A stretch of 64,000 nt of DNA from Agathobacter rectalis ATCC 33656 (GTDB taxonomy: Bacteria > Bacillota > Clostridia > Lachnospirales > Lachnospiraceae). The DNA lies in assembly GCF_000020605.1 (NCBI RefSeq), contig NC_012781.1, positions 2,977,501 to 3,041,500 on the forward strand, given 5' to 3'. A program made the position numbers and the translations under genes. Of the stretch, positions 27,190-45,728 are shown one piece after another; position 1 is the first letter of the stretch; the number at the start of each line of letters is the position of its first letter. Under the pieces are notes generated by a model, which ran no database searches, was not told where the DNA came from, and saw only the letters and a program-made list of their open reading frames with translations.

Positions 27190-27828
27190 TTATAATGTCA
27201 CGGTATGTTTTGAATTTGATAAGGTATCTATATCCGTCAGCTCACGCTCATCTGCGATATCCACATATACACAGTCATACTTCTTTGCCACACTTCTGCC
27301 ACCCTTATCACCCTCCAGTGATAAAAGCTGCGGGATAAGCGATGAATGAAATACACACGGATTACCTACGGTATCTCCACAGCGAAGTGAAAAAACTGAT
27401 TTCATATTTCCTTTATTTTCAAGCACTTTATCTATTAATTTAATCACGCTTTGACTTTTTAAATATGGCTGGTCAGCTACTGCAAACATGTAGTAGTCCT
27501 GCATACCAGTCTTTTTCTGCTCCTGCACCGCCATAATTCCTGCTTTTATGGTGTAGGATATGCCTTTTTCGCTGTCCGGACTTAAGACTGCATGGCAATC
27601 CGGGATACATGCGCAGTAGTCCAGTATTTCCCGATAACGTGTAACAACGGTTATATCTATGACCGGGTTATTCGATTCTGCATTTTTTAATTTATTATAT
27701 CTATCTTTAATTTCTATCAAACGTTCAAGCAGATGCCTGTACATAGGTTTTCCATTCAGCTCATAAAACAGCTTGTTACTTCCAAAACGGCGGCTGTTTC
27801 CAGCCGCCATGTATATGATATGAATCAT
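27190..27828 (-). CDS. mocA: MocA-type molybdenum cofactor cytidylyltransferase
   Basis: A 212-residue nucleotidyltransferase that would transfer CMP to molybdopterin to form the dinucleotide cofactor of hydroxylases. The nucleotide-binding motif MAAGNSRRFGSNKL is at residues 7-20, followed by a GKPMYRHLL region and AVADQPYL with the metal-binding Asp. The ATG at 27828 overlaps the hydroxylase stop (ATGA); upstream in-frame ATGs lie inside that gene. Last gene of the SDMH locus, co-translated with its client enzyme. Confidence 0.85.
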   Translation of the reverse strand: MIHIIYMAAGNSRRFGSNKLFYELNGKPMYRHLLERLIEIKDRYNKLKNAESNNPVIDITVVTRYREILDYCACIPDCHAVLSPDSEKGISYTIKAGIMAVQEQKKTGMQDYYMFAVADQPYLKSQSVIKLIDKVLENKGNMKSVFSLRCGDTVGNPCVFHSSLIPQLLSLEGDKGGRSVAKKYDCVYVDIADERELTDIDTLSNSKHTVTL

Positions 27829-30200
27829 TTCACTCTTAGGTCCTTTTCGTGCCAGTTTGGGTCTGCCATTCCCATAAGTATTTTCTCCGGGGTAAACGGA
27901 ACTGTCCTGTGCCATACGCCTGTTGCGCGATAAATGGCATGTGCCAGCGCAGGAGCCGGTGTATTGATAACTATCTCGCCGATTGACTTGACTCCAAATG
28001 GGCCTGAAGGCTCATAGCTTGTCTCAAATTCGACGTTGATATGTCCCACATCCTGTCGTGTCGGTATCTTGTACTGCATGAAATCATTTTCTGCGATTTT
28101 ACCACCGGCATTGTAGGTGACATTCTCATAAAGTGCCATGCCGATTCCCTGACCTATGCCACCCTCTGTCTGCACACGTGCAAGGTTTGGATTGACCGGA
28201 ATTCCGCAGTCCACGACAGCCTGATAATCAAGTATTTTAACTGCTCCGGTCTCCTTATCAAGCTCTATCTCGACCATGCCTACCATGTATGGTGGCGGTG
28301 AAACAGGTGATGAATATGTGGCGGTGACATCTACAGGTATCGTGTTGTTGACCTGTGCTTTTGTTGCTATATCGGAAAGACTTACGGAAACTGCCACATT
28401 GTCTGCACCGTCCGGATTTATGATATACACCTCTTTACCGTCGAAATCCACCTCTGATGCAGCACAGCCCAGCAGCTGTGCACCGATTTTCTTTATATTT
28501 TCACGAAGCTCAAGTGCTGCATTCTGTGTGGCCATTCCTGTGATGTAGGTGGTTGATGAGGCATATGAACCCGAGTCATAAGGAGAAGCATCTGTATCCG
28601 CTCCAAACACTGTTATATCATCCGGCTCGCAGTCAAGTACCTCAGCCGCCATCTGCGCAAGTATTGTATCACAGCCTGTTCCCATGTCTGCCGCACCTAT
28701 CATCATATTGTAGGTGCCACAGTCTGAAAGCTTTAAGGTACACGAGCCGACATCTACATTGGATATGCAGGAGCCCTGCATTGCAAGCGCCATGCCTGCC
28801 GCACGAACCTTGCCATTTCCCATATCGCGGACAGGATACTTTTCTGCCCAGTGGAAATTGTCCGCGCAGTGCATTATACATCTGTCAAGTGCACATGCAT
28901 TGGCTGTCTCGCCAAAATATGCCGGCATAAACATGCCCTCACGTACAATATTTTTCAAACGAAGCTCAACCGGGTCTATATGCAGCTTTTCTGCAAGCTC
29001 ATTGACGGTTGATTCAAGTGCAAATATACCCTGTGTGGCTCCATAGCCTCTGTATGCTCCTGCCGCCTGCACGTTTGTATACACAACATCGCACGAAAAT
29101 CTGGTTGCCTCGCAGCCTCCTGTATAAAGAGGAAGCGATTTATGACCGGAGAGTCCTACTGTTGTAGTGCTATGCTCTCCGTATGCTCCACCATTTGACA
29201 GCGTATAAAGATCTATCGCCCTTATATGACCATCTTTCATCGCTCCAAGACGCACGGTAACTTCCATCTCATGACGCGGTGACGCGATAGTCTGACACTC
29301 TTTTCTGCTGTAGATTATCTTGCTTGGACGCTTTGTCTTCCAGGTAACAAATGCCGGATACACCTCACAGACCGCTGTCTGCTTGGCACCGAAACCGCCT
29401 CCGATACGCGGCTTTTCAGCGCGCACCATAGACTTTGGAATATCAAGTGCATTTGCCAGTATTCGGCGCAGGTGGAAAACTATCTGTGTCGAGCTGATAC
29501 AGTGAAGTCTGCCGTATCTGTCTATCTCACAGTATGCCCTGCAGGTCTCCATATATGCCTGCTGCGCTGCCTTTATGCGATATGTGTGCTCAATAATCTC
29601 ATCGCACTCTGACAGAATTTTCTCCACATTTCCATGCTCATCCTCTTCGTGGTGAATGAGATTGCGCTTTACATCGCCTGTATCTATGCTGGATGACCAG
29701 TCATCCTCAGGATGCACGAGCACCTTGTTATCCAGCGACTTTCTGAAGTCAAGCACCGGCTCAAGCACCGTGTACTTTACTTTTATCATGTTAAGAGCCT
29801 TGTCCACCGCCTTTTCAGATTCTCCGACTACTATAGCGACGGCGTCACCTACGCTTCTCACATGGCGGTCAAGGATTAATCTGTCATATGGTGACGGCTC
29901 CGGAAATGTCTGGCCTGCGATAGAAAAACGCTTTTTCGGAACATCCTCCCAGGTGTATACTGCGACCATGCCCGGCACCTTAAGAGCGATATCTGTCTTT
30001 ACATCCTCGACAATTGCATTTGCATATGGGCTTCTAAGAAGCTTTATGACAAGCGCATCACGCGGTGTGATGTCATCGGTAAATACCGGCTTTCCGAGTA
30101 AAAGCTGGCTCGAGTCCTTTTTAGGTATACATTTTCCAACCGCGTGGTAATCCCTTCTGGCGCGGTTGAAGCTGTTTTCATTAGTTTGATTTGTGCTCAT
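27825..30200 (-). CDS. Molybdopterin-binding subunit of Se-dependent molybdenum hydroxylase
   Basis: Catalytic subunit (791 residues) of a xanthine-dehydrogenase-family enzyme. The N-terminal a/b hammerhead domain has GKPVFTDDI and LRSPYANA. Mo-domain motifs include RIGGGFGAKQ, GAYRGYGATQG, a GSYASSTTYITG segment and GPFGVKSIGE with the late catalytic-glutamate region. The substrate is unknown (xanthine, hypoxanthine, urate or another heterocycle). Location with selD, yqeB and yqeC marks it as the selenium-dependent type. The start is the ATG at 30200, 7 nt after AAGGAG, overlapping the Fe-S gene by 20 nt. Confidence 0.92.
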   Translation of the reverse strand: MSTNQTNENSFNRARRDYHAVGKCIPKKDSSQLLLGKPVFTDDITPRDALVIKLLRSPYANAIVEDVKTDIALKVPGMVAVYTWEDVPKKRFSIAGQTFPEPSPYDRLILDRHVRSVGDAVAIVVGESEKAVDKALNMIKVKYTVLEPVLDFRKSLDNKVLVHPEDDWSSSIDTGDVKRNLIHHEEDEHGNVEKILSECDEIIEHTYRIKAAQQAYMETCRAYCEIDRYGRLHCISSTQIVFHLRRILANALDIPKSMVRAEKPRIGGGFGAKQTAVCEVYPAFVTWKTKRPSKIIYSRKECQTIASPRHEMEVTVRLGAMKDGHIRAIDLYTLSNGGAYGEHSTTTVGLSGHKSLPLYTGGCEATRFSCDVVYTNVQAAGAYRGYGATQGIFALESTVNELAEKLHIDPVELRLKNIVREGMFMPAYFGETANACALDRCIMHCADNFHWAEKYPVRDMGNGKVRAAGMALAMQGSCISNVDVGSCTLKLSDCGTYNMMIGAADMGTGCDTILAQMAAEVLDCEPDDITVFGADTDASPYDSGSYASSTTYITGMATQNAALELRENIKKIGAQLLGCAASEVDFDGKEVYIINPDGADNVAVSVSLSDIATKAQVNNTIPVDVTATYSSPVSPPPYMVGMVEIELDKETGAVKILDYQAVVDCGIPVNPNLARVQTEGGIGQGIGMALYENVTYNAGGKIAENDFMQYKIPTRQDVGHINVEFETSYEPSGPFGVKSIGEIVINTPAPALAHAIYRATGVWHRTVPFTPEKILMGMADPNWHEKDLRVK

Positions 30201-30714
30201 CCTGCCACTCCTTTCCGATATCCTCTCCATAGACGCCTGCCTCAAGATTAAGAGGTGCGCCCTCTTTCTTACTGTTTAAGAAATTTCTGATTGAGCGGAG
30301 CTGACTCTGATATCCTGTACAACGGCACAGATTTCCTGAAAGATATTCAAGAATTTCCTCATCAGTCGGGTCAGGATTTTCTCTCAGAAGCGCCACAATA
30401 TTTACAATATAACCCGGATTACAAAAGCCGCACTGATCCGCTCCCTGTGCAGCAAAAAATCCTGTAAACTGCTTAGCTTCCTCCTCAAGTCCCTCGAGGG
30501 TGTCCACCGCTCTGCCGTCTGCCCTGCCTATCGGCGTGCTGCATGACAGCACAGGCTTTCCATCCAGAAGCACTGTACAAAGACCACAGTTGCCTGACTC
30601 ACAGCCTCTCTTCACCGAAAAGCAATTGTGCTTACGGCAAAAGTCTAAAAGGACCATATCCTGGTCTACCGAGTCGGTTATTAACTTTCCATTTAATTTT
30701 ATTTTAACATCCAT
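30181..30714 (-). CDS. 2x[2Fe-2S] subunit of the molybdenum hydroxylase
   Basis: A 177-residue electron-transfer subunit. The plant-ferredoxin-type cluster is bound by Cys38, 43, 46 and 58 (GCESGNCGLC...SCS). The helical-domain cluster is bound by Cys95, 98, 130 and 132 (QCGFCNPG and CRCTGY). About 20 extra residues follow the last helix. Sits between the FAD and Mo subunit genes. Confidence 0.95.
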   Translation of the reverse strand: MDVKIKLNGKLITDSVDQDMVLLDFCRKHNCFSVKRGCESGNCGLCTVLLDGKPVLSCSTPIGRADGRAVDTLEGLEEEAKQFTGFFAAQGADQCGFCNPGYIVNIVALLRENPDPTDEEILEYLSGNLCRCTGYQSQLRSIRNFLNSKKEGAPLNLEAGVYGEDIGKEWQDEHKSN

Positions 30715-30734: not shown

Positions 30735-31595
30735 TTAATGCTCGTGCTTAATATCATCGCAGATGTCAAGCGACTGTGTAACAGCGCGGCGTGTAAGCAC
30801 CCTGCAGATTATCTCTCTGTACTCAGCCCCTGCCCTTATATTGCTTCCAAAACGGATATGCTCTGCAACATATTCGGCAAATTTATCTATTTTGGCATTG
30901 GTTTCGGAGTTATCTGTCAAGGCTGCATTACCATCTGTCTTTGCATCTGCTATGCCATCGAGTATGCCATCCTCATCCCACACAGGCTCTGCCATATATG
31001 GTGATGCTCCGATAACCGCCACATACCTGCCGCTTCTGTTTGCCACTGCACATGTGAGCACCGGAAAGTCTGTTGACTGGTTTCTCTGGCTTAAGTATAC
31101 TACGCCCTTTGCATTTTTCGGTACTATTACTGACACAAGCACATCGCGCGTGGTTCTTGGAAGTGCCGCAAACTCATCCAAATCCATAATTCCCGCCTTG
31201 TGAAGCTGCACCTTTGCTCCCAGTGCCCTGAAAATCGTCATGACATCTGAAAATCCGAATCTGCCCCAGATGCTTCCTCCGACAGTTGCCACATTTCTAA
31301 ATTGCACTCCGACAATGTGTCTGACCGACTCTGCGATTGCGCCGTGTGTATATGCATTCAGTGCTTCATGTGTCTCTATCTGCCTGAGTGTTGCATATGC
31401 ACCGATTCTAAACTCGTTCTCATCCTCATCAATTTGGTCAAGTCCGAGATCGCACAGGTCAATTGCCGTGCCAAGCGTCTTATTTTTCATTTTGAGCCAG
31501 AGCATGCCGCCCAGCACAAAATTCGGTTTTTTCTGATAAAGCTCATAAGCTTCATCAAGGCTTTGCGCCCTCACATACTGATTGTAATAAAACAT
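30735..31595 (-). CDS. FAD-binding subunit of the molybdenum hydroxylase
   Basis: A 286-residue CoxM/XdhB-type flavoprotein. FAD-binding features are PNFVLGGMLWLKMK near the N-terminus, the second motif VGVQFRNVATVGGSIWGR and a CO_deh_flav C-terminal region. It passes electrons from the Fe-S clusters to NAD or another acceptor. First of the three structural genes in transcription order. Confidence 0.92.
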   Translation of the reverse strand: MFYYNQYVRAQSLDEAYELYQKKPNFVLGGMLWLKMKNKTLGTAIDLCDLGLDQIDEDENEFRIGAYATLRQIETHEALNAYTHGAIAESVRHIVGVQFRNVATVGGSIWGRFGFSDVMTIFRALGAKVQLHKAGIMDLDEFAALPRTTRDVLVSVIVPKNAKGVVYLSQRNQSTDFPVLTCAVANRSGRYVAVIGASPYMAEPVWDEDGILDGIADAKTDGNAALTDNSETNAKIDKFAEYVAEHIRFGSNIRAGAEYREIICRVLTRRAVTQSLDICDDIKHEH

Positions 31596-31634: not shown

Positions 31635-31889
31635 TTACCTCATTTCGATTTCATACATCGCTTCCCACCTGATGTCATGCTCCTTCATAAAGGCTATGAG
31701 GCACTCCCTGTCAGAAAGCTCTGCTCTCCATGCCAGCCCGCAGCCCGCCGATATGACAGACGGAAGAGGAATCGTGCGTCCCGGAATACCACATGCCTTG
31801 CCCTTGATATCAAGCTTCAACGGTGCTGTGTTAGTCTCGAAGGTGATGATTAGCCGTTTTTTCTTTTCTCTTGCCAAATTTTTATCCAT
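31635..31889 (-). CDS. DUF3343 protein (putative Se/S carrier-like)
   Basis: An 84-residue protein with the family core LPSVISAGCGLAWRAELSD, where the Cys in CGLAW would be the carrier residue. The family regularly accompanies SelD and YedF and is suspected to carry reduced sulfur or selenium; that is inference in the literature and here. Lies between yedF and the FAD subunit. Confidence 0.85.
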   Translation of the reverse strand: MDKNLAREKKKRLIITFETNTAPLKLDIKGKACGIPGRTIPLPSVISAGCGLAWRAELSDRECLIAFMKEHDIRWEAMYEIEMR

Positions 31890-31910: not shown

Positions 31911-32528
31911 CTACGGACTTACAATAAGAGATGCCCCAGCCATCTTTTCTGCGATATCATACATGTTGGTCACCTCTCCGACTGCAAGCTTATCTGACAG
32001 CTCATAGTAGTTCAGGCATGTTCCGCAGGTAAAAATTTTCACCCCACGGCTCTTAAGCTCCTTTAAATCCTCAAGTGACTCTGAGCCCTCACAGGTCAGC
32101 TTCGCTCCTCCATTATAGAAAAGCATGGTTTCAGGCGGGTTGTCCTGCTGCGAAAGCGCATAGATGAAGCCCTTTATAAGTACCTTGCCAAGCTCCTCGC
32201 TGCCCTCTCCCATATATGAAGAGCGGATTACAACAACCCTGTTATCTGCGGCCGGCCTGCATGCATACTGTGAAGCCTCGTCTGTATCCGAAAGCTCATC
32301 GGCATTTACAGCTTCAATTGTCAGCTTTACGCTGTAGCTTCCGTCGTCGAGCTTACTGCTATCACAGCTATAGCCCTTCTGTGCAGCCATCTTTTTTAAA
32401 TTTTCCACTGCAACTTCATTGTCCACAAGTGTCTCAACCGTATCCGGCTGTGTGAGAGCCTCTATCGCTTTCTTTGTCTTTACTACCGGGATTGGACATG
32501 TATCCCCTATTGCATTTACTGTTATCAT
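31911..32528 (-). CDS. yedF: YedF, sulfurtransferase-like selenium metabolism protein
   Basis: 205 residues. The N-terminal TusA-like domain (1-75) has DTCPIPVVKTKKAI with the conserved Cys-Pro-x-Pro. The C-terminal half is DsrE-like, with a GTCLNYYEL segment and a late VGEVTNMYD. Probably handles selenium on its way to SelD. About 95 nt downstream of selD. Confidence 0.92.
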   Translation of the reverse strand: MITVNAIGDTCPIPVVKTKKAIEALTQPDTVETLVDNEVAVENLKKMAAQKGYSCDSSKLDDGSYSVKLTIEAVNADELSDTDEASQYACRPAADNRVVVIRSSYMGEGSEELGKVLIKGFIYALSQQDNPPETMLFYNGGAKLTCEGSESLEDLKELKSRGVKIFTCGTCLNYYELSDKLAVGEVTNMYDIAEKMAGASLIVSP

Positions 32529-32624: not shown

Positions 32625-33653
32625 TCAGTTCACATATATCGGCACATCGCGACGCTTAACAAATCGTCCCACCTTTGCAGCCGGGAGCCCTGCGGCTTTA
32701 AGCTCATGCAAAAATGCATCTGCCTCAGAGGCTTTTACTGCAAACAGCAATCCTCCGGAGGTCTGCGGATCGAAAAGTACCTCCTCCATTGAAAAAGGTA
32801 TATTTTTTGCAAAGCACACCTTATCACCTACATGGTTTCTGTTGCGCTGGGCCGCTGCCGTGAGGAAAAACTCATCTGCGCATCGCAGTGCTCCGGTAAT
32901 GACCGGGATGGAAATCGAGTCGATAAGTGCTGTTATATCATCATTTAACATCTCACTCAGATGCCCTAAAAAGCTAAATCCCGTGACATCCGTGCATGCA
33001 TGTATATCGAAAGCATGACTGATTTCGGATGCTGCCTTATTCAGTGTGGTCATAGAGCTTACCGCATCCTCAATTGCACCTAACGGAGCTTCCCCGACGC
33101 GGTTTGCGTTGCATACAAGCCCCACTCCGAGTTTCTTTGTAAGTATAAGCACATCTGACGGCTGCCCTGTATTGTTGCTGTAAATATGCTCCGGGTGGAC
33201 CGTACCCATGACTGAAAGTCCGTATTTTACATCACTGTCTGCTATAGAATGGCCGCCCGCAAGTGTGCCGCCGGCCTCTATCACCTTATCGGCACCGCCC
33301 TGCATTATTTTGCCAAGTATATTCAGATCCATTTTCTCAGGGAAACAGACGATGTTCAATGCGGTCTTTACTGTGCCGCCCATCGCATAGATATCACTGA
33401 GCGCATTTGCAGCCGCTATCTGTCCAAACGTATACGGATCATCAACCATCGGCGGAAAAAAATCAAGCGTCTGGACTACCGCCGTGTCATCTGAAATTTT
33501 GTACACTGCCGCATCATCACAGCTATCATATCCGATGAGCAGATTGCTGTCTTTTTCACCCCTTGGCAGCTTTGCTAAAACATGACTTAACAAATCCGGA
33601 CCAAGCTTTGCGGTACAGCCACCGCCCTTGCAAAACACTATTTCCTGTGGCAT
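32625..33653 (-). CDS. selD: Selenide, water dikinase
   Basis: Makes selenophosphate from selenide and ATP. 342 residues. The catalytic segment [13 protein letters not shown] holds Cys13 and Lys16, aligned with Cys17 and Lys20 of the E. coli enzyme; it is a Cys, not Sec, form. Also seen are [23 protein letters not shown] and [11 protein letters not shown]. The ATG at 33653 follows AAAGGAG. No selA or selB is visible in this window, consistent with a role in the Mo cofactor. Confidence 0.96.
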
Positions 33654-33682
33654 TTTTGCTCCTTTCAATTGTTTAATACTAT

Positions 33683-34846
33683 TTATCGCAATGCCGCAAT
33701 CTGCATAAGCGCTTCAGCGGCCTCATTTATCTCATCAACTGTATTATAATATGAAAATGAGAATCTCACCATACCCTGTTTTTGTGTTCCAAAGAATTTA
33801 TGCATCAGTGGTGCGCAGTGTATACCGCTCCTTGTTGCTATGCCATACTCATTCATAAGTATGTCTGACACCTCCGCCGAGTCCATATCAGCTATATTTA
33901 CAGAAACAATCGCACAGTGCAGACCATTGTCGGACAGCACATCGAAATCTCCATATATCCTGATTCCCGGGATTGTCTTTATTTTTCCCATAAATGCCTG
34001 CATCAGCTCATGCTCTTTAGCGTATATATTGTCGAGGCCGATTTTCTCAAGCTCCATGACACCAGTTAAAAGCCCTGCGATTCCCGGACCGTTTAAGGTA
34101 CCGGCCTCAAGTCTTGTCGGAAGCTCCATAGGCTGGTTCTCAAGAAAGCTTAGCACGCCGGTGCCACCGCTCTTAAACGGCTTTATATCTGCTCTCTCTC
34201 CCACATAAAGGCCTCCGGTGCCCTGCGGTCCCATCAAACCCTTATGGCCTGTGAAGCAGAGCACATCAATATTCATTTCCCTTATATTTATAGGAAGTAC
34301 ACCGGCTGTCTGCGATGCATCGACTATAAATAAAAGGTTATACTTTCGTGCGATTTGACCTATCGACTTAATATCCACCACGTTGCCTGTGAGATTTGAA
34401 GCATGTGTGCATACGATGGCTTTTGTATCCGGACGGATTAAAGCCTCTATGTCCGATGGGGAAATTATCCCCCTTTTTATGCCTGCATCACTGCATGGTA
34501 CAATATCCACACCCACGCCCCGCTCCCTTTGCATATAAAGAGGTCTGAGCACGGAATTATGCTCGAGCTGTGTTGTAATCACATGCTCCCCCGGCTCAAA
34601 CAGTCCGTGGATTGCAATGTTTAGTGCCTCAGTGGCATTTGCCGTAAAAACGAGTCTGGCCGCATCATCTCCGCCGAAAAATTCTGCAAGGCACATTCTG
34701 GCCTCATATATTTTCCTCGACGCATCAAGCGATGCATCCGATGCCCCGCGCCCGGAATTGCCGCAGTGCTTCATTGCATCAAGCACTGCATCATATACCG
34801 CATCCGGCTTTTTAATTGTTGTGGCAGCATTGTCCAGGTAAATCAT
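33683..34846 (-). CDS. Cysteine desulfurase-like class V aminotransferase (SDMH-associated)
   Basis: A 387-residue PLP enzyme with Lys202 in [15 protein letters not shown] and the mobile-loop Cys344 in RSGIHCAP. It fits the subfamily found next to selenium-dependent hydroxylases (the EF2568 type). It may liberate Se from selenocysteine, or provide sulfur/selenium for the terminal Mo ligand; which one is not known. Lies between modC and selD. Confidence 0.9.
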
Positions 34847-34866: not shown

Positions 34867-35937
34867 TCATCCAAGCAGATAAAAATTCTTTATATAAAGC
34901 TCATCATTTATATTTTTGTTAAGCATATTTGCTTCTGTATGCCTCGGAAGGCTTGCGTAAATTATTGAATCGTTATTTAATTTACACAATACTTCCCAGC
35001 TTTTCAGTTCTTCAATCATTTTATAATCTTTAATCCTGATTATATTTTTATCAGCATATGCAAGTGCCGTTTTTGTTTTGCCTGCAGATATTATAATATC
35101 CTGTGGGAAAACACCTATGTGCGATATGCCGTCCATACTCATTGCAGTCTGTTCAAGCTGCTCATCAGTGACCTCAAATACGCTATCCCATTCCACCGCA
35201 AGCAAATGATGCTTATCCTGCCATTTTACCTCTGATATATTGTTGCAGCCCACAAGCAGTGCCTGCTCCACAGACATAGGCCGCATGAAGAAATCTTTTT
35301 TGTCGCGGACTGTACTCAGTACACCGCTCTCCATGCTTCCGATACGCTCGGCCAGGCGATACACCTCATCGCGATTGTGTGACACAAAAACAACAGGATT
35401 GTGAAAATCTGTCAGCATCTCCATAAGCTCTGATTCCATGCTTCTTTTTACATGCTCATCCAGTGCCGAAAAAGGCTCATCGAGCAGTATGCACTCCGGC
35501 TTAGCCGCAAGCATGCGAAGCATTGCCACGCGCTGCCTCTGACCACCTGAGAGATGGTTGGGATATGTGTATGCCATGCCCTCAAGCCCATACCTCTTCA
35601 GCCAGCCCTTCACTTTTTCCTCGTTACGCTGACCCATTGCTATGCATATATTTTCCATCACAGTCATTGTCGGAAATAATGCATAGTCCTGAAACAGATA
35701 GCCTACCCTGCGCTTACCCGGTTGCAGATTTATACGCTTTTTCGAATCATACAGCACACGGCCGTTTAATGATATAAAGCCTGAGTCCGGTGTCTCTATC
35801 CCTGCTATGCACTTTAATGTCATACTCTTTCCTGAGCCCGACATACCGATTACGGACACAACCTCGTCCGTAAGCTCCATGTCAACCGAGAGCATGAAAT
35901 TATCCAACTGTTTTTTTATTTTTACTATGAGCGACAT
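34867..35937 (-). CDS. modC: Molybdate ABC transporter ATPase
   Basis: 356 residues: Walker A GMSGSGKS (31-38), signature LSGGQRQR, Walker B CILLDEPFSALDE and H-loop FVSHNRDE. The last about 120 residues hold a TOBE/MOP-like region. Start at 35937 overlaps the modB 3' end by 38 nt, with only a weak AAAGAG site, so translation is probably coupled. Confidence 0.93.
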   Translation of the reverse strand: MSLIVKIKKQLDNFMLSVDMELTDEVVSVIGMSGSGKSMTLKCIAGIETPDSGFISLNGRVLYDSKKRINLQPGKRRVGYLFQDYALFPTMTVMENICIAMGQRNEEKVKGWLKRYGLEGMAYTYPNHLSGGQRQRVAMLRMLAAKPECILLDEPFSALDEHVKRSMESELMEMLTDFHNPVVFVSHNRDEVYRLAERIGSMESGVLSTVRDKKDFFMRPMSVEQALLVGCNNISEVKWQDKHHLLAVEWDSVFEVTDEQLEQTAMSMDGISHIGVFPQDIIISAGKTKTALAYADKNIIRIKDYKMIEELKSWEVLCKLNNDSIIYASLPRHTEANMLNKNINDELYIKNFYLLG

Positions 35938-37635: not shown

Positions 37636-39051
37636 TCATCCAAGCTGCTCCAGCAGCACCGAAATACTGCCTCCGCACACCATGCCCTCTTTCTCGGCAT
37701 CGTCAGTGTTCATGCTCACATCCATCAAACCGCATTTGAACTCCTGCTTGCGAAACAGTCTCCTGCATTGGCTTATAACCTCTGCCTCCGCACAACCGCC
37801 GCCTATAGTTCCGATGATCCGATTGTCTGAGCTCACGAGCATCTGTGTTCCGACTCCGCGCGGTGCACTGCCATTCTTTTTTATGATGGTACACAGTATA
37901 TACTTCTCATCTGATGCCTCAATAAGTGCATCAAGCACTTCGTTATCCACCTGTGTGCAGCCGGTACGCTCATTTTTGCACTTTACTATCTCACTTATCA
38001 CCGAAAGCGCAATTTCCTCCGGTGTCTGTCCGCCTATTGCAAGGCCTATCGGAGAATGTAATCCGGATATGTTTTCCCGTGAAAATCCCGATTCTTCAAG
38101 GTCTTTTTTTACTATGGCAGCTCTTTTCTTTGAGCCCATCATCCCCACATAGGCGTATGGCTTTCTGAATATCTCTGTAAGACACTCCATATCAAAGCGA
38201 TGACCTCTTGTCATGCATACATAGTAATCATCCGCCTGTGGCTCCAGCCTGGCGAGAGTTTTTTTATAATCGCCGCAAATTACATGGTCTGCTCCTTGGC
38301 GCTTTGCATTATCGGCAAACAGAGGTCTGTCCTCTATCACCCATATGTCAAAGGCCAAAAGTGATGCCATGCGTACAAGTGCCGCCGATACATGACCTCC
38401 TCCGCAGATTATGAGGCGTGGTCTGCTGCCTATCTGCTGTTTAAACATCACAATGGAATTATCATTGTCATTTATTTCATCTGCCCATGCACTGCCTGAT
38501 GCCACTCTTATTCTGCCATCTATATAAAGCGCCTTTTCACCGGCATGTGCTCCTTCTGTGACTGTCAAAAGCTCACAGCGACTGTCCGCCGGTCTGTCCT
38601 TTATCGAAGCATATATGTTTGCCGGAATCAGCTTCACCTCGTCACCGGTATGAATCTGGCCGCCTCTTATGACTACTGCAAACACGCCCTCCTTTGGCAT
38701 AATGCACTCGCCCATCCTCTTGTAGATAGCACAATGCGAATGACACTGCTTGCCTATCTGCGTCATCTCCAGAATAGCATCTCCTATGCAAAAGCGTGTT
38801 CCAAGCGGTAAATTCTTGAAATCAAATCCTGATATAATTAAATTTTCGCCAAATGCGCCGTTGTCTATCTGCGCTCCTCTTGCCCTGAAGGCATCTATTT
38901 TCTCTGCGGAAAGCAGGCTGACCTGCCTGTGCCACTTTCCGGCATGTGCATCTCCCATGATGCCATAGTCTGCAACAAGCTCCGCCTGTGGCACCTCTCT
39001 CTTTTCAGTTCCTCTCTCTTTGCTTATATTGATTGCAAGAAGCTTTCCCAT
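37636..39051 (-). CDS. MOSC domain fused to permuted XdhC
   Basis: 471 residues in three parts. Residues 1-142 form a MOSC domain with GKQCHSHCAIYKRMGECIMP, a fold that handles sulfurated Mo cofactor. Residues 210-355 are the Rossmann half of XdhC (LIICGGGHVSAALV, MTRGHRFD, VGMMGSKKR). Residues 373-471 are the XdhC/CoxI half (KKNGSAPRGVGTQM, TIGGGCAEAEV, CGGSISVLLEQ). In ordinary XdhC the CoxI half comes first. It likely inserts or sulfurates/selenates the cofactor of the hydroxylase. The ribosome binding site GGAGG is formed by the last codons of moaA. Confidence 0.88.
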   Translation of the reverse strand: MGKLLAINISKERGTEKREVPQAELVADYGIMGDAHAGKWHRQVSLLSAEKIDAFRARGAQIDNGAFGENLIISGFDFKNLPLGTRFCIGDAILEMTQIGKQCHSHCAIYKRMGECIMPKEGVFAVVIRGGQIHTGDEVKLIPANIYASIKDRPADSRCELLTVTEGAHAGEKALYIDGRIRVASGSAWADEINDNDNSIVMFKQQIGSRPRLIICGGGHVSAALVRMASLLAFDIWVIEDRPLFADNAKRQGADHVICGDYKKTLARLEPQADDYYVCMTRGHRFDMECLTEIFRKPYAYVGMMGSKKRAAIVKKDLEESGFSRENISGLHSPIGLAIGGQTPEEIALSVISEIVKCKNERTGCTQVDNEVLDALIEASDEKYILCTIIKKNGSAPRGVGTQMLVSSDNRIIGTIGGGCAEAEVISQCRRLFRKQEFKCGLMDVSMNTDDAEKEGMVCGGSISVLLEQLG

Positions 39052-39060
39052 GATTTGCTA

Positions 39061-40134
39061 TCAGCCTCCTATCCGGCTCATATTTCTTGCTGCATTTACT
39101 TCCGCAGCTTTCAGCTCTGTAGCCTTTGTCTCTACAGTCTTTGTCTCTGTAGTTTTTGTATATGTCACTGCATTATCATTAAAATTGTGACACCCCGGCT
39201 TTGCCTTTATGGCAGCCTTTAGTGCCTGAACTATTACAAAATCTTTTTCCAAATCATCTGTAAATTCGCATGAATCAGGTACTAAATCCATCGTCACGCT
39301 GCTTCCCAGGCATGGCATAAGCCTGCCGTCAGCCGTAACACGTATGCGGTTACAGGTATCGCAGAACTTCCCATGGATTGCCTGAATCAGCCCTACTCTG
39401 ATATTAAGTCCATGAAAACTGTAATACTCTGCCGGACCGTTATCTGAATTATTATATCCCGAATTAATTTCTTCTCTATTTTCAGTATCTATATGGCAAA
39501 AAGTTCCATATACTTCTAAAAGTGCGCCAATAACCTTCTCATACGGCTCGACTCCGTTGGTATGCCCTTCACCTACCGGCATCATCTCTATAAAACGGAT
39601 ATCTGTGCCTTTTTTGGAAGCATACCGTGTGAGAGCCACCACATCTGTCTGCGGTGTGAGCACCACATTGATTTTCACTCTTATTCCACACTCTATGGCA
39701 GCATCGATTCCATGCTCTACTTTATGAAGCAGCGGTTTTTTTGTGATATGTTCATATTCTGACGCATCTATCGTGTCCAGGCTCACATTTATACTGTCTA
39801 TGCCGGCTTCCTTAAGCTGCTTTGCATGCTGCGCAAGCAATACTGCGTTTGTGGTGAGTGATACACTCCTGACACCGGGTATCTTTTTGATTTGTGAAAC
39901 CATCTCATCAATCTGCGGATGCAGAAGCGGCTCACCGCCTGTCAGACGAAAATGCGTGATTCCAATCCTTGTGGCTGCGCGGACTATACAAAGCACCTTT
40001 TTTACGCTAAGTATATTTATTGCCTGACAATTTTTATTATTGTCCTGTGGGTTGCAATAATAACAGTTCAGATTACAGCTATCTATCACCGATATGCGCA
40101 TGTAGTCAATCTCTCTGCCAAATCTATCGCGCAT
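39061..40134 (-). CDS. moaA: GTP 3',8-cyclase
   Basis: Radical-SAM first step of molybdopterin synthesis. The N-terminal cluster is bound by Cys20, 24 and 27 (CNLNCYYC). The C-terminal cluster is in FCDTCNRIRVTADGRLMPC. The protein ends in RIGG, the double glycine needed for activity. A Thr/Glu/Lys-rich stretch of about 25 residues (TKTTETKTVETKATELKAAE) is inserted just before that end. The start is ATG 40134, 8 nt after GAAGGG; upstream ATGs lie inside the previous gene. Confidence 0.95.
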   Translation of the reverse strand: MRDRFGREIDYMRISVIDSCNLNCYYCNPQDNNKNCQAINILSVKKVLCIVRAATRIGITHFRLTGGEPLLHPQIDEMVSQIKKIPGVRSVSLTTNAVLLAQHAKQLKEAGIDSINVSLDTIDASEYEHITKKPLLHKVEHGIDAAIECGIRVKINVVLTPQTDVVALTRYASKKGTDIRFIEMMPVGEGHTNGVEPYEKVIGALLEVYGTFCHIDTENREEINSGYNNSDNGPAEYYSFHGLNIRVGLIQAIHGKFCDTCNRIRVTADGRLMPCLGSSVTMDLVPDSCEFTDDLEKDFVIVQALKAAIKAKPGCHNFNDNAVTYTKTTETKTVETKATELKAAEVNAARNMSRIGG

Positions 40135-40135
40135 A

Positions 40136-41245
40136 TTAAAAGCCCTTCCCGAAACCGCAGTTAGGAAACGTACAGACATCACAATTCAGGCAGAGTCCGC
40201 CTTCTCCAAGTCCGGCAAGCTCATCTGCCAAAATCATATCACACGCCATAAGCCTCGGCAATACAATATCAAATATCGTACGCTTGTTGTACATGGCGCA
40301 GCCGGGCAGTCCACATATCGGCACCAGCCTGTCACCTGCATCATAGTACGACAGCAAAAACATGGCTCCCGGCAGCACCGGTGAACCGTACGACACGATC
40401 CTCGCGCCTGTATTTTTTATGGCAAGCGGTGTTTTATCATCAGGATCCACACTCATTCCGCCTGTGCAGAATACAATCTCCGCTCCTGCCTCTATTGCAC
40501 GTAAGCAGCCGTCTGTTATTTTTTGGTCATCATCATCAAACACCTCATGAAACATCATCTGTGCACCAAACTCTGCTATTTTTTTCTCGATGACAGGGGT
40601 AAACGCATCCTGTATCCTGCCGTGGAACACTTCATTTCCGGTTGTGATTATTGCTGCTTTTCTGACCACAAACGGCTTTATATCAAGAATCGGTCCGTCA
40701 TCGCATATGTGCGAAGCCGCCTCCAGCTTATCCTTTTTTATGACAAGCGGTATGATTCTTGTTCCGGCAAGCTTATCCCCCTTTTTCACAGTGGTATTGC
40801 CGTGCCTTGTTGCTATCATCATTTCACCAAAGGAGTTGACCTTTTTCAGCTTTTCGCTGTCCACCTTAAGCAGTCCGTCACAGTCAGCAATCACCTCTAT
40901 CTTGCCTTCCTTTACAGGGGATGGATGCATTTTACTTGCGGTGCCACCAAAAGCGCCGGATTCTGCGGCTTCACAATGACGTTCGCCGTCGGTCTCATTG
41001 CTATTTGTGCCACATGCGCTCATACGATAAAGCACCTCTGCTGCCTCATTTTCGTGCATCATGGTCTCATCATTTTCCCATATATATATGGTGTCTTTTC
41101 CAACGCTAAGCAGCACCGGTATATCCTCTTTTGTTATAATATGTCCCTTGCGAAAAACCGCATCCTTTTTCACACCGGGGATAATCTGTGTGATATCGTG
41201 GCAGAGCACCTGTCCGACTGCCTCCGTTGTCTTCATAAGCTTCAT
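40136..41245 (-). CDS. MoeA/MoaB-like molybdopterin-binding protein with Cys-rich tail
   Basis: About 369 residues. The C-terminal two thirds contain a MoCF_biosynth domain (ITTGNEVFHG, EVFDDDDQKI, FCTGGMSVDPDD, LPGAMF). The N-terminus has no complete MoeA domain I/II arrangement. The protein ends CLNCDVCTFPNCGFGKGF, four cysteines that could bind a cluster or metal. Probably adenylates or metallates molybdopterin for the selenium-dependent enzyme. The start is uncertain: ATG 41245, or GTG 41257. Confidence 0.85.
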   Translation of the reverse strand: MKLMKTTEAVGQVLCHDITQIIPGVKKDAVFRKGHIITKEDIPVLLSVGKDTIYIWENDETMMHENEAAEVLYRMSACGTNSNETDGERHCEAAESGAFGGTASKMHPSPVKEGKIEVIADCDGLLKVDSEKLKKVNSFGEMMIATRHGNTTVKKGDKLAGTRIIPLVIKKDKLEAASHICDDGPILDIKPFVVRKAAIITTGNEVFHGRIQDAFTPVIEKKIAEFGAQMMFHEVFDDDDQKITDGCLRAIEAGAEIVFCTGGMSVDPDDKTPLAIKNTGARIVSYGSPVLPGAMFLLSYYDAGDRLVPICGLPGCAMYNKRTIFDIVLPRLMACDMILADELAGLGEGGLCLNCDVCTFPNCGFGKGF

Positions 41246-41314
41246 ATAATCCCACACTCCAAATATTATTTTTGTAAATAGTTACTGTCCTAAACCATAC
41301 CCCGTGCATTTCCG

Positions 41315-41803
41315 TCACCGGCCGCACTCACTGTCATACTGCAATAAAATATCAAGTCCATGCTCTATATTTCCCATCAGAAAATCCATGCTCTCCGACA
41401 CTGCCTTCACACTGCCGGGCAGATTGACTATAAGTGTGTTTTTCCTGATAACTGAAGCTCCTCTGCCAAGCATGGCTTTAGGTGTAAGACTCATGCTGTA
41501 CGCTCTCAGTGCCTCAGCGATACCCGGTGCATTACGCTCTGCAACATCCATTGTAGCTTCCGGTGTGATATCTCTCGGTGAAAAACCGGTACCTCCGGTT
41601 GTAAGCACCAGATTGCATTTCACATCATCACACAGCCTGACAAGCTCGTCTGCAATCTGCTCCCTCTCATCCGGTATGATTTTATATGAAACCACATCAT
41701 ACTTATCTTTGGGAAGCAGTTCCTTTATTTTCGGACCGCTTTTATCCTCTCTTTGGCCCGTTGCGCCTTTATCGCTTATCGTTATAATCCCTACAGTATA
41801 CAT
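41315..41803 (-). CDS. mogA: Molybdopterin adenylyltransferase-type protein
   Basis: A 162-residue MogA/MoaB fold: VGIITISDKG, LVLTTGGTGFSPRDITPEAT, and a late LIVNLPGSVKAVSESMDFL. Activates molybdopterin by adenylation before Mo insertion. Lies between moaC and the MoeA-like gene. Confidence 0.93.
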   Translation of the reverse strand: MYTVGIITISDKGATGQREDKSGPKIKELLPKDKYDVVSYKIIPDEREQIADELVRLCDDVKCNLVLTTGGTGFSPRDITPEATMDVAERNAPGIAEALRAYSMSLTPKAMLGRGASVIRKNTLIVNLPGSVKAVSESMDFLMGNIEHGLDILLQYDSECGR

Positions 41804-41888: not shown

Positions 41889-42416
41889 TTAATTGTGAAC
41901 AGCAACGTAATGCCCGCTCTTGCCACCGGATTTTTCCAGCAGATGTATCTGCCCGATTTCCATGCCACGGTCCAGTGCCTTACACATATCATATATGGTA
42001 AGAAGCGCCACACTGACCCCTGTCATGGCCTCCATCTCTACACCGGTTTTGCCAACACAGGCTGTCGTGCAGATTGCCGTGATACTGCTGTTTTTTTCAT
42101 CCAGCTCAAACTCAACATCACACTTTGTCATGGCAATAGCATGACAGAGCGGAATGAGCATGGAATTGTTCTTTGCGCCCATGATTCCCGCAATCCTCGC
42201 TACTGCCAGCACATCTCCCTTTTTAGCTGTGCCCGTAGATACCGCCTTGTATACGGCGTCATTTACCTTTATCGTGCCACAGGCTTTCGCCACGCGGTAT
42301 GTGTCATCCTTTGCATGCACATCCACCATGTGAGCTTCCCCTGCCTCATTAAAATGTGTGAGCTTTCCTTTATTTTGTTCCTGATTATTGATATCTAATT
42401 CGTTTTCCTGCGTCAA
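41889..42416 (-). CDS. moaC: Cyclic pyranopterin monophosphate synthase
   Basis: Second step of molybdopterin synthesis after MoaA. Contains THFNEAGEAHMVDV, GIMGAKNNSMLIPLCHA, and the active-site GVEMEAMTGVSVALLTIYDM. The N-terminal extension is hydrophilic. The probable start is TTG at 42416, 9 nt after GAGG; a GTG at 42431 is in frame but lies on that site. Confidence 0.93.
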   Translation of the reverse strand: MTQENELDINNQEQNKGKLTHFNEAGEAHMVDVHAKDDTYRVAKACGTIKVNDAVYKAVSTGTAKKGDVLAVARIAGIMGAKNNSMLIPLCHAIAMTKCDVEFELDEKNSSITAICTTACVGKTGVEMEAMTGVSVALLTIYDMCKALDRGMEIGQIHLLEKSGGKSGHYVAVHN

Positions 42417-42484
42417 TCTATTTATCCTCACTGTAACTATTCAGAACCACTGAAAACACCTTAATAGTTACCCTCATTTATTAT

Positions 42485-43435
42485 TTAATAAATCTTTACG
42501 CCGTGCTCAAATGCCGATGCCGCCTCAAGCACACTGCCTGCTATACTCCTTGCCTTGTCAGAGATTGTAAAGCAATTTGTTATCTCACTCTCGCGCGGGT
42601 CGATATCCGCTATCTTGAAGCCTTTCCTGAAATAATAACCCTCACGGATAAGGCCTCGTATGATGCCTGTAATTGTAGCATTCACAGGGACATATTCAGA
42701 CAATGCATTGTCATAGCTTTCTTTATCCGGATATATCCGCGCTATCTCATCGCCCTTTTGCACGATGTCTCCGATTTTTCTGACGTCATGAATATATCCT
42801 GCCGCCGGAGCGTGAATCACACGCTCACTTGTGAAGCCGGCGATATTTCCCGGAACACCTGTGTTGGGCTGTGCCATGCCATCGGTAATGATGCGCGCCA
42901 GATTGTGCCCACGCATGGACTCAATCACCAGATGCACGTCTTGCCCTGCCGTAAAGCCCGGGCCTACTCCTATCACAAGCGGGGCCATATTGATTGTGGT
43001 ACCCAGATTTTTCTTTGCTATTATGGCATCTACCACAGCATCCGGCTTCAAAAGTTCAATTGACTCACCCTTTGGATCTATAAGAAGCGGGACCTCTCCG
43101 GCTTCAAGCACAGCTTCGATGGCTGAACTATCCCACTTTTCTGATGCAATATGAGCTGCCGGTGTGTCACTTATCCCTGAATATGTCTCTGCATCAGCCA
43201 AGGCAGGAACAAGTCTGGCTGTCACACCCTCTACAGCTGCGCTCCCATCATACACTGCTTCACAAAAGGACACCTGGCGCCGTATGGCAGCCGGATAGTC
43301 TGTCTCAAGCGCTATCACCCTATGCCCTGCCCGGTGCAGTCTGTGGATGATGCCGGTCGCAAGGTCTCCTGCACCGCGGCATATGATTAACAAATTTTTC
43401 TTTATTATCTGATTATTGCTCTGATTCATGCTCAT
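42485..43435 (-). CDS. yqeB: YqeB, EF2563-family SDMH protein
   Basis: 316 residues with an N-terminal Rossmann-like LLIICRGAGDLATGIIHRLHRAGH and a C-terminal swivelling or biotin-lipoyl-like part (VPVNATITGIIRGLIREGYYF). The family is a phylogenetic marker of selenium-dependent molybdenum hydroxylases; its reaction is unknown. No strong ribosome binding site precedes the chosen ATG. Confidence 0.92.
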   Translation of the reverse strand: MSMNQSNNQIIKKNLLIICRGAGDLATGIIHRLHRAGHRVIALETDYPAAIRRQVSFCEAVYDGSAAVEGVTARLVPALADAETYSGISDTPAAHIASEKWDSSAIEAVLEAGEVPLLIDPKGESIELLKPDAVVDAIIAKKNLGTTINMAPLVIGVGPGFTAGQDVHLVIESMRGHNLARIITDGMAQPNTGVPGNIAGFTSERVIHAPAAGYIHDVRKIGDIVQKGDEIARIYPDKESYDNALSEYVPVNATITGIIRGLIREGYYFRKGFKIADIDPRESEITNCFTISDKARSIAGSVLEAASAFEHGVKIY

Positions 43436-43481: not shown

Positions 43482-44099
43482 TCAGAACCACCAACGCTCA
43501 TTCGCAAAAACGCACGATATTCGTCCTTCAAACCCGCTATCGCGCAGCTTTCTGACATAGACCTGCCGCAGCGTATCTATAACCGAATCATCAACCACTG
43601 CATCCTCTGCCGTTCCAAGCTCCTTTTGCATAAGCTCATATCGAAATACAACGTCCTTACATGACCTGCCCTTTTCCCATGTGCCAAGCACTATGATAAC
43701 ATCTGTGGTACCCGGATATATGACCGGCTCATCCGCTGCCGGATATTTGAGGGAATGGTGCTTTGCCCCATCTGCTTCGATTATAACATAATCTAACGCC
43801 TGTGGCATGTCTTTAATCAGTTTATCGAGCAAATCATACGGCAGTCCGCACATTTTTGGCTTTGACTGCTCTGATATTTTCTGTTCAGATATTTTCTGCC
43901 CCGCCATACAATATCCATCTTTTATTATTTTATCCCTTAACGCAAAAAAATCGCAGGATAGGTCAGTGTCAGCTTCGACATACATGTGCGTTGTCGTTGT
44001 GACAAGCACACCTTTTCCACTCCTGTGATATTCCCTTGCAAGCTTATGAACGAGTGTGGTCTTGCCACCTGCGCCCACTATTGAAATCACTTTTTCCAT
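43482..44099 (-). CDS. yqeC: YqeC, selenium cofactor biosynthesis protein
   Basis: 205 residues, P-loop VGAGGKTTLVHKL at the N-terminus, VLVTTTTHMYVE, and DYVIIEADGAKHHSLKYPA as Walker B-like strand. A second marker of the SDMH system, presumed to act in Se insertion; mechanism unknown. A small in-frame duplication (KISEQKISEQ) is present in the middle. Confidence 0.92.
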   Translation of the reverse strand: MEKVISIVGAGGKTTLVHKLAREYHRSGKGVLVTTTTHMYVEADTDLSCDFFALRDKIIKDGYCMAGQKISEQKISEQSKPKMCGLPYDLLDKLIKDMPQALDYVIIEADGAKHHSLKYPAADEPVIYPGTTDVIIVLGTWEKGRSCKDVVFRYELMQKELGTAEDAVVDDSVIDTLRQVYVRKLRDSGFEGRISCVFANERWWF

Positions 44100-44161: not shown

Positions 44162-44175
44162 CAAAATCCTAAGCG

Positions 44176-45648
44176 TTAGTCATCCACACGCTTCACATCG
44201 TCTTTCTCGTCCATATCCCACATATATGGCGCGTTCTTTGACTTCTTCGGCAAAATAATATTGAGAAGAATAGCGCAAAGTGAGCAAGGCACGATACCTG
44301 AACCGCCAAATATAAGCTGTACATAGTATGGCAGATGTGATGTAGCACCGGTTGTAGCGCCAAGTCCGTAGCCTAAACCGATTGCTACTGAGATAATTGT
44401 AATCTCACGGCTGCCGATTGGCTCCTTTGTGATGAGCTCAATTCCCGAAATCAGGATAGAGGCAAACATCATAACAGCAGCTCCGCCGAGCACTGACTGA
44501 GGCATGATTGACATGAGAGCTCCAATCTTTGGGCAGAAGCCGCAAATAACGAGGAATATAGCTCCCATTGAAATAGCAAATCTATTGACAACCTTTGTCA
44601 TTGAAACAAGACCTACATTCTGTGAGAATGAGGTATTTGGCAGTACTCCGAAAAGCGCTGCAAATGATGAACCAAGACCATCACAGATAACACCGCCTGA
44701 AAGCTCTGAATCTGTAGCCTCTCTGTCCATTCCACCCTCCACACAGGCTGAAATATCGCCAACTGTCTCGATTGCAGTAACGATAAACATGATACCGATT
44801 GGGATGATTGCATTGGCATGGAAGGAAATTCCCACATCTGACAACTTTCCAAAACCTATAAAGCTTGGAACTGCTATCCATGCCGCATTTTTAACCTCAT
44901 CAAAGTTTACAACCCATGAGTATGTGTATTTAACACCGTCAGCGGTCACACCTGTGTGTGACATGGTAAGTGTCATAATGATTGCTACAACATATCCTGC
45001 CAGGATACCAAAAAGGATGGCAGATGATGAAAAAATACTGCGCGATGGTGCAAAATGCTTAAGAAGCACGATTACTATAAGTACAACCATTCCAATAAAA
45101 AGGTTTGGCAGTGAGCCGTAATCATTTTTGCCTGTTCCACCACAGAAGTAGTTGATTCCCACTCCAAGGAGTGAAAGTCCGATTGCTATAACAACTGAGC
45201 CTGTAACGATTGCCGGGAAAAACTTGCGCAAAGGCTTTAAGAAGGCTCCGAGTATGCCCTCGAAGATACCTCCTACAAGGCAGGCTCCCATAATAGCTCC
45301 ATATGCTATAACTCCGCCGCCACACGCTGCAACTGTATTATTTAATACTCCAAGAAAGCCCGAAGAGGTTCCCATAACGATAGGTACCTTTCCTCCGACA
45401 GGTCCGATGGAAAACATCTGTACTAATGTTACAATACCTGCGATAATCATTGCATTCTGTAAGAGAGCTGTTCTAAGCTCCGCAAAGCCAGCGTCCGCTG
45501 TGAGCCCGCATGCTCCCATAACAATGATAAGAGGTGTAAGGTTTCCGATGAACATAGCCATAACATGCTGCAGTCCAAGCGGAATAGCCTGAGACAGAGG
45601 TATTCTGCCCTCAAACTGGTAAGGTGAAGAGTTCGTTGTCTTTTTCAT
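44176..45648 (-). CDS. Nucleobase:cation symporter-2 (xanthine/uracil permease family)
   Basis: A 490-residue membrane protein with about 12-14 helices. NCS2 signature regions include PLGLQHVMAMFIGN near the N-terminus, the AIETVGDISACVEGG segment with the conserved transport Glu, and LFGVLPNTSFSQNVGLV. The start is the ATG at 45648 after GGAGG. As the first gene upstream of the SDMH set it probably imports the enzyme's purine substrate; xanthine or urate specificity cannot be read from sequence. Confidence 0.92.
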   Translation of the reverse strand: MKKTTNSSPYQFEGRIPLSQAIPLGLQHVMAMFIGNLTPLIIVMGACGLTADAGFAELRTALLQNAMIIAGIVTLVQMFSIGPVGGKVPIVMGTSSGFLGVLNNTVAACGGGVIAYGAIMGACLVGGIFEGILGAFLKPLRKFFPAIVTGSVVIAIGLSLLGVGINYFCGGTGKNDYGSLPNLFIGMVVLIVIVLLKHFAPSRSIFSSSAILFGILAGYVVAIIMTLTMSHTGVTADGVKYTYSWVVNFDEVKNAAWIAVPSFIGFGKLSDVGISFHANAIIPIGIMFIVTAIETVGDISACVEGGMDREATDSELSGGVICDGLGSSFAALFGVLPNTSFSQNVGLVSMTKVVNRFAISMGAIFLVICGFCPKIGALMSIMPQSVLGGAAVMMFASILISGIELITKEPIGSREITIISVAIGLGYGLGATTGATSHLPYYVQLIFGGSGIVPCSLCAILLNIILPKKSKNAPYMWDMDEKDDVKRVDD

Positions 45649-45699
45649 TGGTTCCTCCAAATAATTATACTCTTAATTTAATAAAAAATTTACAAAATT

Positions 45700-45728
45700 A
45701 TTTTACGAGCATAAGGCTATGTGGTCAA
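45700..45728 (-). promoter_or_regulatory. Probable promoter of the permease/SDMH transcript
   Basis: Minus-strand TTGACC (45723-45728), 17-nt spacer, TAAAAT (45700-45705). About 50 nt upstream of the permease start. No purine riboswitch pattern was recognised in the leader. Confidence 0.5.

Follow-up and report, generated by a model that had tools for sequence, protein, structure and literature searches.

We analysed a window of 64,000 nucleotides from Agathobacter rectalis ATCC 33656 (NC_012781.1, positions 2,977,501 to 3,041,500 of the forward strand), whose genome is complete, 3.45 Mb in size and assembled as a single contig; all positions given below are window coordinates. On the minus strand, from 45660 down to 27190, the window carries a unit of 19 co-directed genes which probably makes one selenium-dependent molybdenum hydroxylase (SDMH) of the xanthine-oxidase family with a purine substrate, xanthine or urate being the likeliest. 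The locus belongs to the known selenium-cofactor kind, and the genome holds a single SelD and a single hydroxylase of this type. The molybdenum cofactor (Moco) pathway encoded with it is without a MoaE match, and we tentatively propose that a MOSC domain with three conserved cysteines takes the corresponding role.

Gene content and order of the hydroxylase unit

Gene families were assigned with NCBIfam, using its curated cut-offs, and with Pfam. Read from 45660, the order is ncs2, yqeC, yqeB, moaC, mogA, a MoeA-like gene, moaA, MOSC-XdhC, modA, modB, modC, an EF2568-type desulfurase gene, selD, yedF, the DUF3343 gene, three hydroxylase subunit genes and mocA, with intergenic gaps of -91 to +96 bases. 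A phosphatase-like gene lies 207 bases upstream of the unit, and its downstream neighbor is spoVT-like. The features are as follows.

44176..45660, minus: NCS2 nucleobase permease, xanthine/urate type, first in the unit (PF00860; PbuX 349 bits, cut-off 414)
43482..44099, minus: yqeC, selenium cofactor biosynthesis protein (TIGR03172, 141 bits, above cut-off)
42485..43435, minus: yqeB, selenium-cofactor trait marker (TIGR03309, 328 bits, above cut-off)
41889..42431, minus: moaC, cyclic pyranopterin monophosphate (cPMP) synthase (TIGR00581, 190 bits, above cut-off)
41315..41803, minus: mogA, molybdopterin adenylyltransferase (PRK09417, 151 bits, cut-off 158; only the molyb_syn domain model passed, 106 bits)
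40136..41257, minus: MoeA-like molybdopterin-binding protein, MoCF domain alone (Pfam PF00994 only)
39061..40182, minus: moaA, GTP 3',8-cyclase (TIGR02666, 286 bits against a cut-off of 284)
38626..39051, minus: MOSC domain, residues 1-142, with C103, C107 and C116; tentatively proposed sulfur-insertion protein replacing MoaD/MoaE (PF03473)
37636..38625, minus: Moco chaperone part of the fusion with MOSC, comprising the XdhC Rossmann and XdhC_CoxI domains (PF13478, PF02625)
36625..37539, minus: modA, molybdate-binding protein (TIGR01256, above cut-off)
35900..36625, minus: modB, molybdate permease (TIGR02141, above cut-off)
34867..35937, minus: modC, molybdate/tungstate ABC ATPase (TIGR02142, 188 bits, under cut-off)
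33683..34846, minus: EF2568-type cysteine desulfurase, selenocysteine lyase-like (TIGR01977, 449 bits, above cut-off; SclA model 370 against 525)
32625..33653, minus: selD, selenophosphate synthetase (TIGR00476, 381 bits, above cut-off)
31911..32528, minus: yedF, TusA-like selenium protein (TIGR03527, 213 bits, above cut-off)
31635..31889, minus: DUF3343, putative Se/S carrier (Pfam Se_S_carrier, PF11823, 67.5 bits)
30735..31595, minus: hydroxylase flavin adenine dinucleotide (FAD) subunit (PF00941)
30181..30714, minus: hydroxylase 2x[2Fe-2S] subunit (PF00111, PF01799)
27825..30245, minus: hydroxylase molybdopterin (Mo) subunit, hydA (PF01315, PF02738, PF20256)
27190..27915, minus: mocA, molybdenum cofactor cytidylyltransferase (TIGR03310, 94 bits, cut-off 186)

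The three hydroxylase subunits, MocA, ModC, MOSC-XdhC and the NCS2 permease score under their NCBIfam cut-offs yet are clear by domain, and the domains of the fusion protein (37636-39051) run MOSC, XdhC Rossmann, XdhC_CoxI. The selD gene probably starts at the ATG at 33653, which has AAAGGAG immediately 5', rather than at the TTG at 33668, and its CTAK motif is read here as that of a Cys-type SelD. A matching gene order was also found in Hominisplanchenecus faecis (L118) and in genome G026 (L057); because the order recurs there, chance is not an issue for the arrangement. A mocA homologue stands directly 3' of hydA in 6 of 12 hydroxylase loci of relatives. No riboswitch exceeded the Rfam gathering score between 27 and 46 kb, and none reached an E value of up to 1 between 43.9 and 46.5 kb. 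Promoter (42 versus 36.8 shuffled) and terminator (19 versus 14.4) scans came close to the shuffled rate and were not used. Thus, every gene named in the original prediction is present, on one strand and mostly tightly spaced. The description of a hydroxylase locus with its own permease also holds as to the NCS2 gene, but such loci were already known, for example in Enterococcus faecalis.

Selenium supply, the hydroxylase, and its probable substrate

The traits that mark the selenium cofactor in Haft & Self 2008 (SelD, YqeB, and YqeC present, and a hydroxylase in the same locus) are all found here. In profile searches of the genome, a single SelD exceeded the cut-off (381 bits). No SelB match did so; the best reached 189 of the 242 bits needed and is probably EF-Tu, because only positions 2-261 of 581 aligned. 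There was no selenouridine synthase (SelU; best 22 bits) and no tRNA-Sec over the gathering score of 47 (best 44.0 bits). The two top-scoring tRNA-Sec candidates were rejected as tRNA-Ser, and ten weaker places were not individually inspected. The SelB, SelU, and tRNA-Sec profiles exceeded their cut-offs in 2, 1, and 5 of 14 control genomes. The Mo subunit of the window is the sole PF20256 (MoCoBD_2) protein in the genome. Since no SelB, SelU, or tRNA-Sec passed its threshold and one MoCoBD_2 protein is encoded, the SelD encoded next to the hydroxylase, YqeB, and YqeC qualifies as an orphan by the usage of Haft & Self (PMC2276186); SelA was not searched. The earlier claim of such an orphan SelD is supported, and the genome search for selB and tRNA-Sec that had been suggested as its check returned neither. 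The selenium-cofactor trait has been counted in 312 organisms among more than 5200 (PMC5029168), where "orphan SelD" has a narrower meaning and would not include the A. rectalis genome.

Co-occurrence was examined in 116 genomes, i.e., the A. rectalis genome and 115 relatives, 61 of these within the genus. YqeB scored over cut-off in 16 of them, SelD in 26, SelB in 11, SelU in 8, and MoaC was found in 25. Fourteen genomes have SelD without SelB or SelU, and all 14 have YqeB. Defining the hydroxylase clade as at least 55% identity to the window Mo subunit gave 17 genomes; YqeB is found in 13 of these versus 3 of the 99 others (Fisher p = 2e-11, uncorrected for kinship among genomes that are not independent). 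SelD and YqeB occur in all 12 clade genomes that bear MoaC. These patterns support the conclusion that SelD and YqeB track the hydroxylase clade.

The hydroxylase itself combines Mo, FAD, and 2x[2Fe-2S] domains with the Glu motif of the xanthine-oxidase family. Its Mo subunit keeps the GGGFGAKQ and KSIGE motifs, the Glu of the latter being taken as catalytic. Among three annotated enzymes compared, the nearest is Escherichia coli XdhD (37% identity), followed by XdhA (33%) and the E. faecalis Se-dependent enzyme (29%); the E. faecalis enzyme has Glu after GGGFG, where Gln is found here and in both E. coli proteins. For XdhD, a 2025 report describes the reduction of urate to yanthine (PMC12507026). 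The permease is closest, among solved structures, to the uric acid-xanthine permease UapA, and NCS2 permeases 62-64% identical to it adjoin the hydroxylase in G087, G050, and G064 and lie within 5 kb of it in G055 and G069. On the basis of permease and enzyme, our best guess is a purine substrate, xanthine or urate. In Clostridioides difficile, selD and yqeB mutants are reported to grow poorly on these two purines (PMC11448449). The neighbors of the hydroxylase in relatives were also considered as a guide to the substrate and set aside as uninformative; the scan covered 10 proteins, and names could be given to a pyrimidine phosphorylase, PhoH and sporulation proteins, an ABC binding protein, and a sugar-acid kinase.

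Several observations weigh against a selenium-dependent, purine-acting enzyme. Five clade members (G014, G049, G055, G069, and G072) have no MoaC match, with the hydroxylase motifs intact. Four of them (G049, G055, G069, and G072) also have no YqeB; G049, G055, and G069 have no SelD over cut-off, and G072 has SelD together with SelU. The hydroxylases of these four (L200, L199, L201, and L210, respectively) sit in genomes without a MoaC or MOSC match, and G049, G069, and G072 are listed as 99% complete. Conversely, G006 (84% complete) has SelD and YqeB and no hydroxylase match, and G093 and G106 have YqeB with SelB and hydroxylases just 33-34% identical, G093 being without a SelD match. Deletion of yqeC in C. 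difficile is reported to give no obvious phenotype (PMC11448449). These points could suggest an ordinary sulfido-Mo hydroxylase, with SelD, YedF, DUF3343, and YqeB serving another selenium use or sulfur trafficking and the co-location being historical; same-clade hydroxylases do exist without SelD and YqeB (G049, G055, and G069), and DUF3343 is described in organisms without SelD as well (PMC5322559). However, no other user of SelD was found among SelB, SelU, and tRNA-Sec, and SelD and YqeB accompany every MoaC-bearing clade member. Moreover, the four YqeB-free members also lack MoaC and hence are no evidence of an active selenium-free (sulfur) form. We consider the sulfido-Mo explanation very unlikely.

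As to the substrate, the hydroxylase lies below every NCBIfam equivalog cut-off (best XdhA, 582 against 780), and an NCS2 gene is found in just 5 of 12 hydroxylase loci of relatives, with none in the other 7 within the stretch examined. The genes of a reductive urate/purine degradation cluster are likewise not beside the hydroxylase: ssnA, ygfK, hyuA, ygeX, ygeY, and ygeW were not among 30 chosen proteins scanned between 19.4 and 51.5 kb, the genome elsewhere not being searched. A non-purine substrate, such as nicotinate or another N-heterocycle, would agree with the NCS2-free loci, with the Gln that replaces the Glu of the E. faecalis enzyme, and with the inclusion of nicotinic acid hydroxylase among known SDMHs (PMC2276186). 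Against it stand the NCS2 permease within the A. rectalis unit, its close homologues beside or near the hydroxylase in the five relatives named above, and XdhD, with its reported urate-to-yanthine activity (PMC12507026), as the nearest enzyme compared. A non-purine substrate is thus unlikely, and a purine is retained as the preferred assignment.

The MoaE gap and the MOSC domain

A profile search found no MoaE match in the locus or in the complete genome, so the canonical Moco pathway is not fully represented, and the earlier claims that the locus is "apparently complete" and unites import, synthesis of the cofactor, provision of selenium, and the enzyme are not supported. MoaD was not found among the 30 proteins scanned, and no genome-wide MoaD search was made. 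The MoaE profile detects 11 of 14 control genomes, exactly the 11 with MoaC. Among the 116 genomes it matched two (G086 and G087), leaving 23 of 25 MoaC-bearing genomes, A. rectalis included, without MoaE. In G087 the match (37.8 bits, over cut-off) comes from a MoaE-like domain in a fusion with MogA; the domain stops short of the C-terminal WK(K/R)E segment that MoaE of E. coli and of G086 has. The MoaE-like family that lacks this segment is seen in L062 and L198.

All 23 MoaC-bearing genomes without MoaE encode a protein related to the MOSC domain of 37636-39051 (E up to 1e-6), and neither of the two with MoaE does; among the 91 genomes without MoaC such a protein occurs once (G106, 83% complete). 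This mutual exclusion is at most suggestive, there being only two MoaE-bearing genomes and kinship among the rest. An alignment of 16 MOSC sequences was then used as a query and retrieved at least 586 relatives from a collection of species genomes; the 80 best were analysed, many in loci shorter than 20 kb. Near the MOSC gene in these 80 loci we found moaA in 72, mogA in 69, moaC in 61, a MoeA-like gene in 40, the hydroxylase Mo subunit in 7, yqeB in 5, selD in 3, and MoaE in none. Clustering of the open reading frames (ORFs) of the same loci gave moaA 72, moaC 58, MoeA-like 48, and modABC 40-42, the next family reaching 16; mogA fell into the MOSC cluster via fusions. Such fusions place MOSC in one ORF with MogA in 39 cases, and with MoaC and XdhC in one case each. 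When the whole genomes behind the first 50 of the 80, of unstated completeness, were searched, MoaE matched in one (G120, 26.3 bits against a cut-off of 23.4), again without the C-terminal segment. All 81 sequences compared have C103, C107, and C116 (the search patterns include C116 and neither C103 nor C107), and the domain model is confident (mean predicted local distance difference test score, 91). Record titles place most of the 80 in Clostridia; five records are from spirochaetes, and Selenomonadaceae and Paenibacillaceae have one each. The organisms are presumably anaerobes.

Two other ideas about the fusion protein were rejected. A role for MOSC-XdhC in selenium insertion specifically does not agree with the position of MOSC beside moaA, moaC, and mogA in most of the 80 loci, with so few selD and yqeB genes nearby, and the permuted order of the XdhC domains is not a novelty, both orders occurring among 15 XdhC-bearing loci (10 and 5).

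A substitution of MoaD/MoaE by MOSC proteins was suggested for Dehalobacter in 2016 (PMC4751268), and PMC1779556 places MOSC proteins among the late steps. In the literature searched we found the molybdopterin synthase idea only in PMC4751268 and no experiment or systematic count, subscription papers being mostly outside the search. On the evidence above, the MOSC domain may take the molybdopterin synthase role, which we put at somewhat below an even chance; the MoeA-like protein is a weaker candidate for it. A different explanation is that the absence of MoaE reflects a broken pathway, a scavenged cofactor, or an unseen enzyme, and that the role of the MOSC protein is limited to sulfurating or carrying Moco that is already made, or that it is itself a small molybdoenzyme. 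In Moco sulfurases, MOSC domains are known to transfer sulfur and bind Moco (PMC2997495). PMC6147048 treats YiiM, mARC, and other MOSC proteins as molybdoenzymes, with 78.5% of Mo-using bacteria having them, and also describes orphan molybdoprotein genomes. The nearest PDB match of our MOSC profile, although weak, is YiiM (E 0.007; the 25 weak matches comprise 3 YiiM chains and 22 nucleoprotein chains, the latter presumably due to chance).

A natural deletion agrees with this alternative as well. In G014, homology to the window stops at 42471 and resumes at 37518, so that moaC to MOSC-XdhC is gone while the enzyme is kept, and about 12.6 kb stand instead. This island (L055, 4428-17074) encodes three resolvase/recombinase-domain proteins and a KwaB-like gene. 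The remaining locus proteins are 95-99% identical, except MocA (73%). No MoaC or MOSC match was found elsewhere in this genome, which is 86% complete, and misassembly is possible. On the other side, MOSC keeps company with the core synthesis genes far more often than with a hydroxylase and often shares an ORF with MogA. Furthermore, it is absent from both MoaC-bearing genomes with a MoaE match, and MoaE matched in a single one of the 50 MOSC-bearing genomes searched, without its C-terminal segment. We regard a broken or scavenging pathway, or a late-acting MOSC protein, as a serious possibility that falls short of even.

A broader proposal, which we consider doubtful, is that, in anaerobic Clostridia and Treponema, the three-Cys MOSC is the enzyme that makes molybdopterin, in place of MoaD/MoaE. 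Its cysteines could hold a persulfide, or an Fe-S cluster with an open site, passing sulfide to cPMP, and the fusion to XdhC in A. rectalis would join dithiolene formation with hand-over to the selenium enzyme.

A route through the whole unit can be proposed. The NCS2 permease would bring in the purine and ModABC would import molybdate. MoaA and MoaC would make cPMP, and the dithiolene step, carried out elsewhere by MoaD/MoaE, would fall to another protein, most likely the MOSC domain with sulfur from a cysteine desulfurase. MogA and the MoeA-like protein would then load Mo, MocA would add CMP, and XdhC would guard the cofactor and hand it over. For selenium, the EF2568-type desulfurase, YedF, and DUF3343 would supply selenide, from which SelD would make selenophosphate, and YqeB, helped by YqeC, would swap a Mo ligand for selenium.

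Related loci, neighboring features, and significance

The closest known loci are those of E. faecalis and, gene for gene, H. faecis. The E. faecalis SDMH locus (NZ_CP142821.1, L212) likewise carries an NCS2 permease, XdhC, xdh, mocA, sclA, selD, yedF, DUF3343, yqeC, and yqeB on one strand. However, its enzyme is a Se_dep_XDH-type chain with the Fe-S part in the same protein (the TIGR03311 model spans both) rather than three subunits. In addition, purine-catabolic genes lie beside it and no moa or mod gene is annotated within 20 kb, whereas in A. rectalis moaA, moaC, mogA, and modABC are inside the unit and MOSC is fused to XdhC. L212 and L214 (NZ_OY725717.1) are filed as plasmids; they may be chromosome pieces, because housekeeping genes (release factor 1 and glyA; ribosomal proteins) adjoin their selenium-cofactor genes. 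H. faecis CLA-AA-H246, a strain of human gut origin, shares 18 genes from ncs2 to hydA in identical order, including the MOSC-XdhC fusion, and differs by sequence divergence alone (hydA 84% and yqeB 66% identical); the sequence examined ends within hydA, before any mocA.

The SelD of C. difficile presumably also serves selenoproteins. In that organism, as described in PMC11448449, growing well with xanthine and urate similarly depends on YqeB, whereas yqeB, yqeC, and selD lie apart and there are five hydroxylase loci. The E. coli cluster of xdhABC, xdhD/ygfM, yqeB, yqeC, and mocA (L215) resembles the A. rectalis unit in that genes for YqeB, YqeC, MocA, and hydroxylases adjoin a purine permease gene, and differs in having MoaD and MoaE and in placing selD elsewhere (b1764; PMC2276186). 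In the Dehalobacter Moco cluster, MoaD/MoaE were likewise not found and MOSC proteins are present; unlike here, the passage on that cluster discusses it with formate dehydrogenases, not with a selenium-dependent hydroxylase, and makes its remark without a wider count (PMC4751268).

Other features of the window were also noted. Two TwoAYGGAY RNA motifs lie on the minus strand at 21824-21991 and 5206-5376 (130 and 146 bits, gathering score 43), one about 210 bases 5' of acyl carrier protein, FabK, and FabD genes, the other 5' of capsule-type genes (Cps4B-like, chain-length, and tyrosine kinase). Lipid and surface-sugar genes may be under shared control. A glycine riboswitch (48058-48204, minus strand, 47.5 bits) precedes an AgcS amino-acid carrier gene (46425-47852), and an FMN riboswitch (9478-9593, minus strand) precedes riboflavin genes. 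An AcsV-like corrinoid activation protein (49926-51527; 317 bits, cut-off 800) hints at corrinoid metabolism.

Taken together, one SelD, one hydroxylase, no SelB, SelU, or tRNA-Sec found, and a single operon shared with the named strain H. faecis CLA-AA-H246 make a clean test bed: selenium in that hydroxylase would most simply arrive via these few genes. More surprising, and deserving of more attention, is the missing MoaE, which a MOSC domain with three cysteines appears to replace. If MOSC does replace molybdopterin synthase, many Clostridia would have a second solution to a textbook cofactor pathway, and annotation rules that require MoaD/MoaE would miss such pathways.

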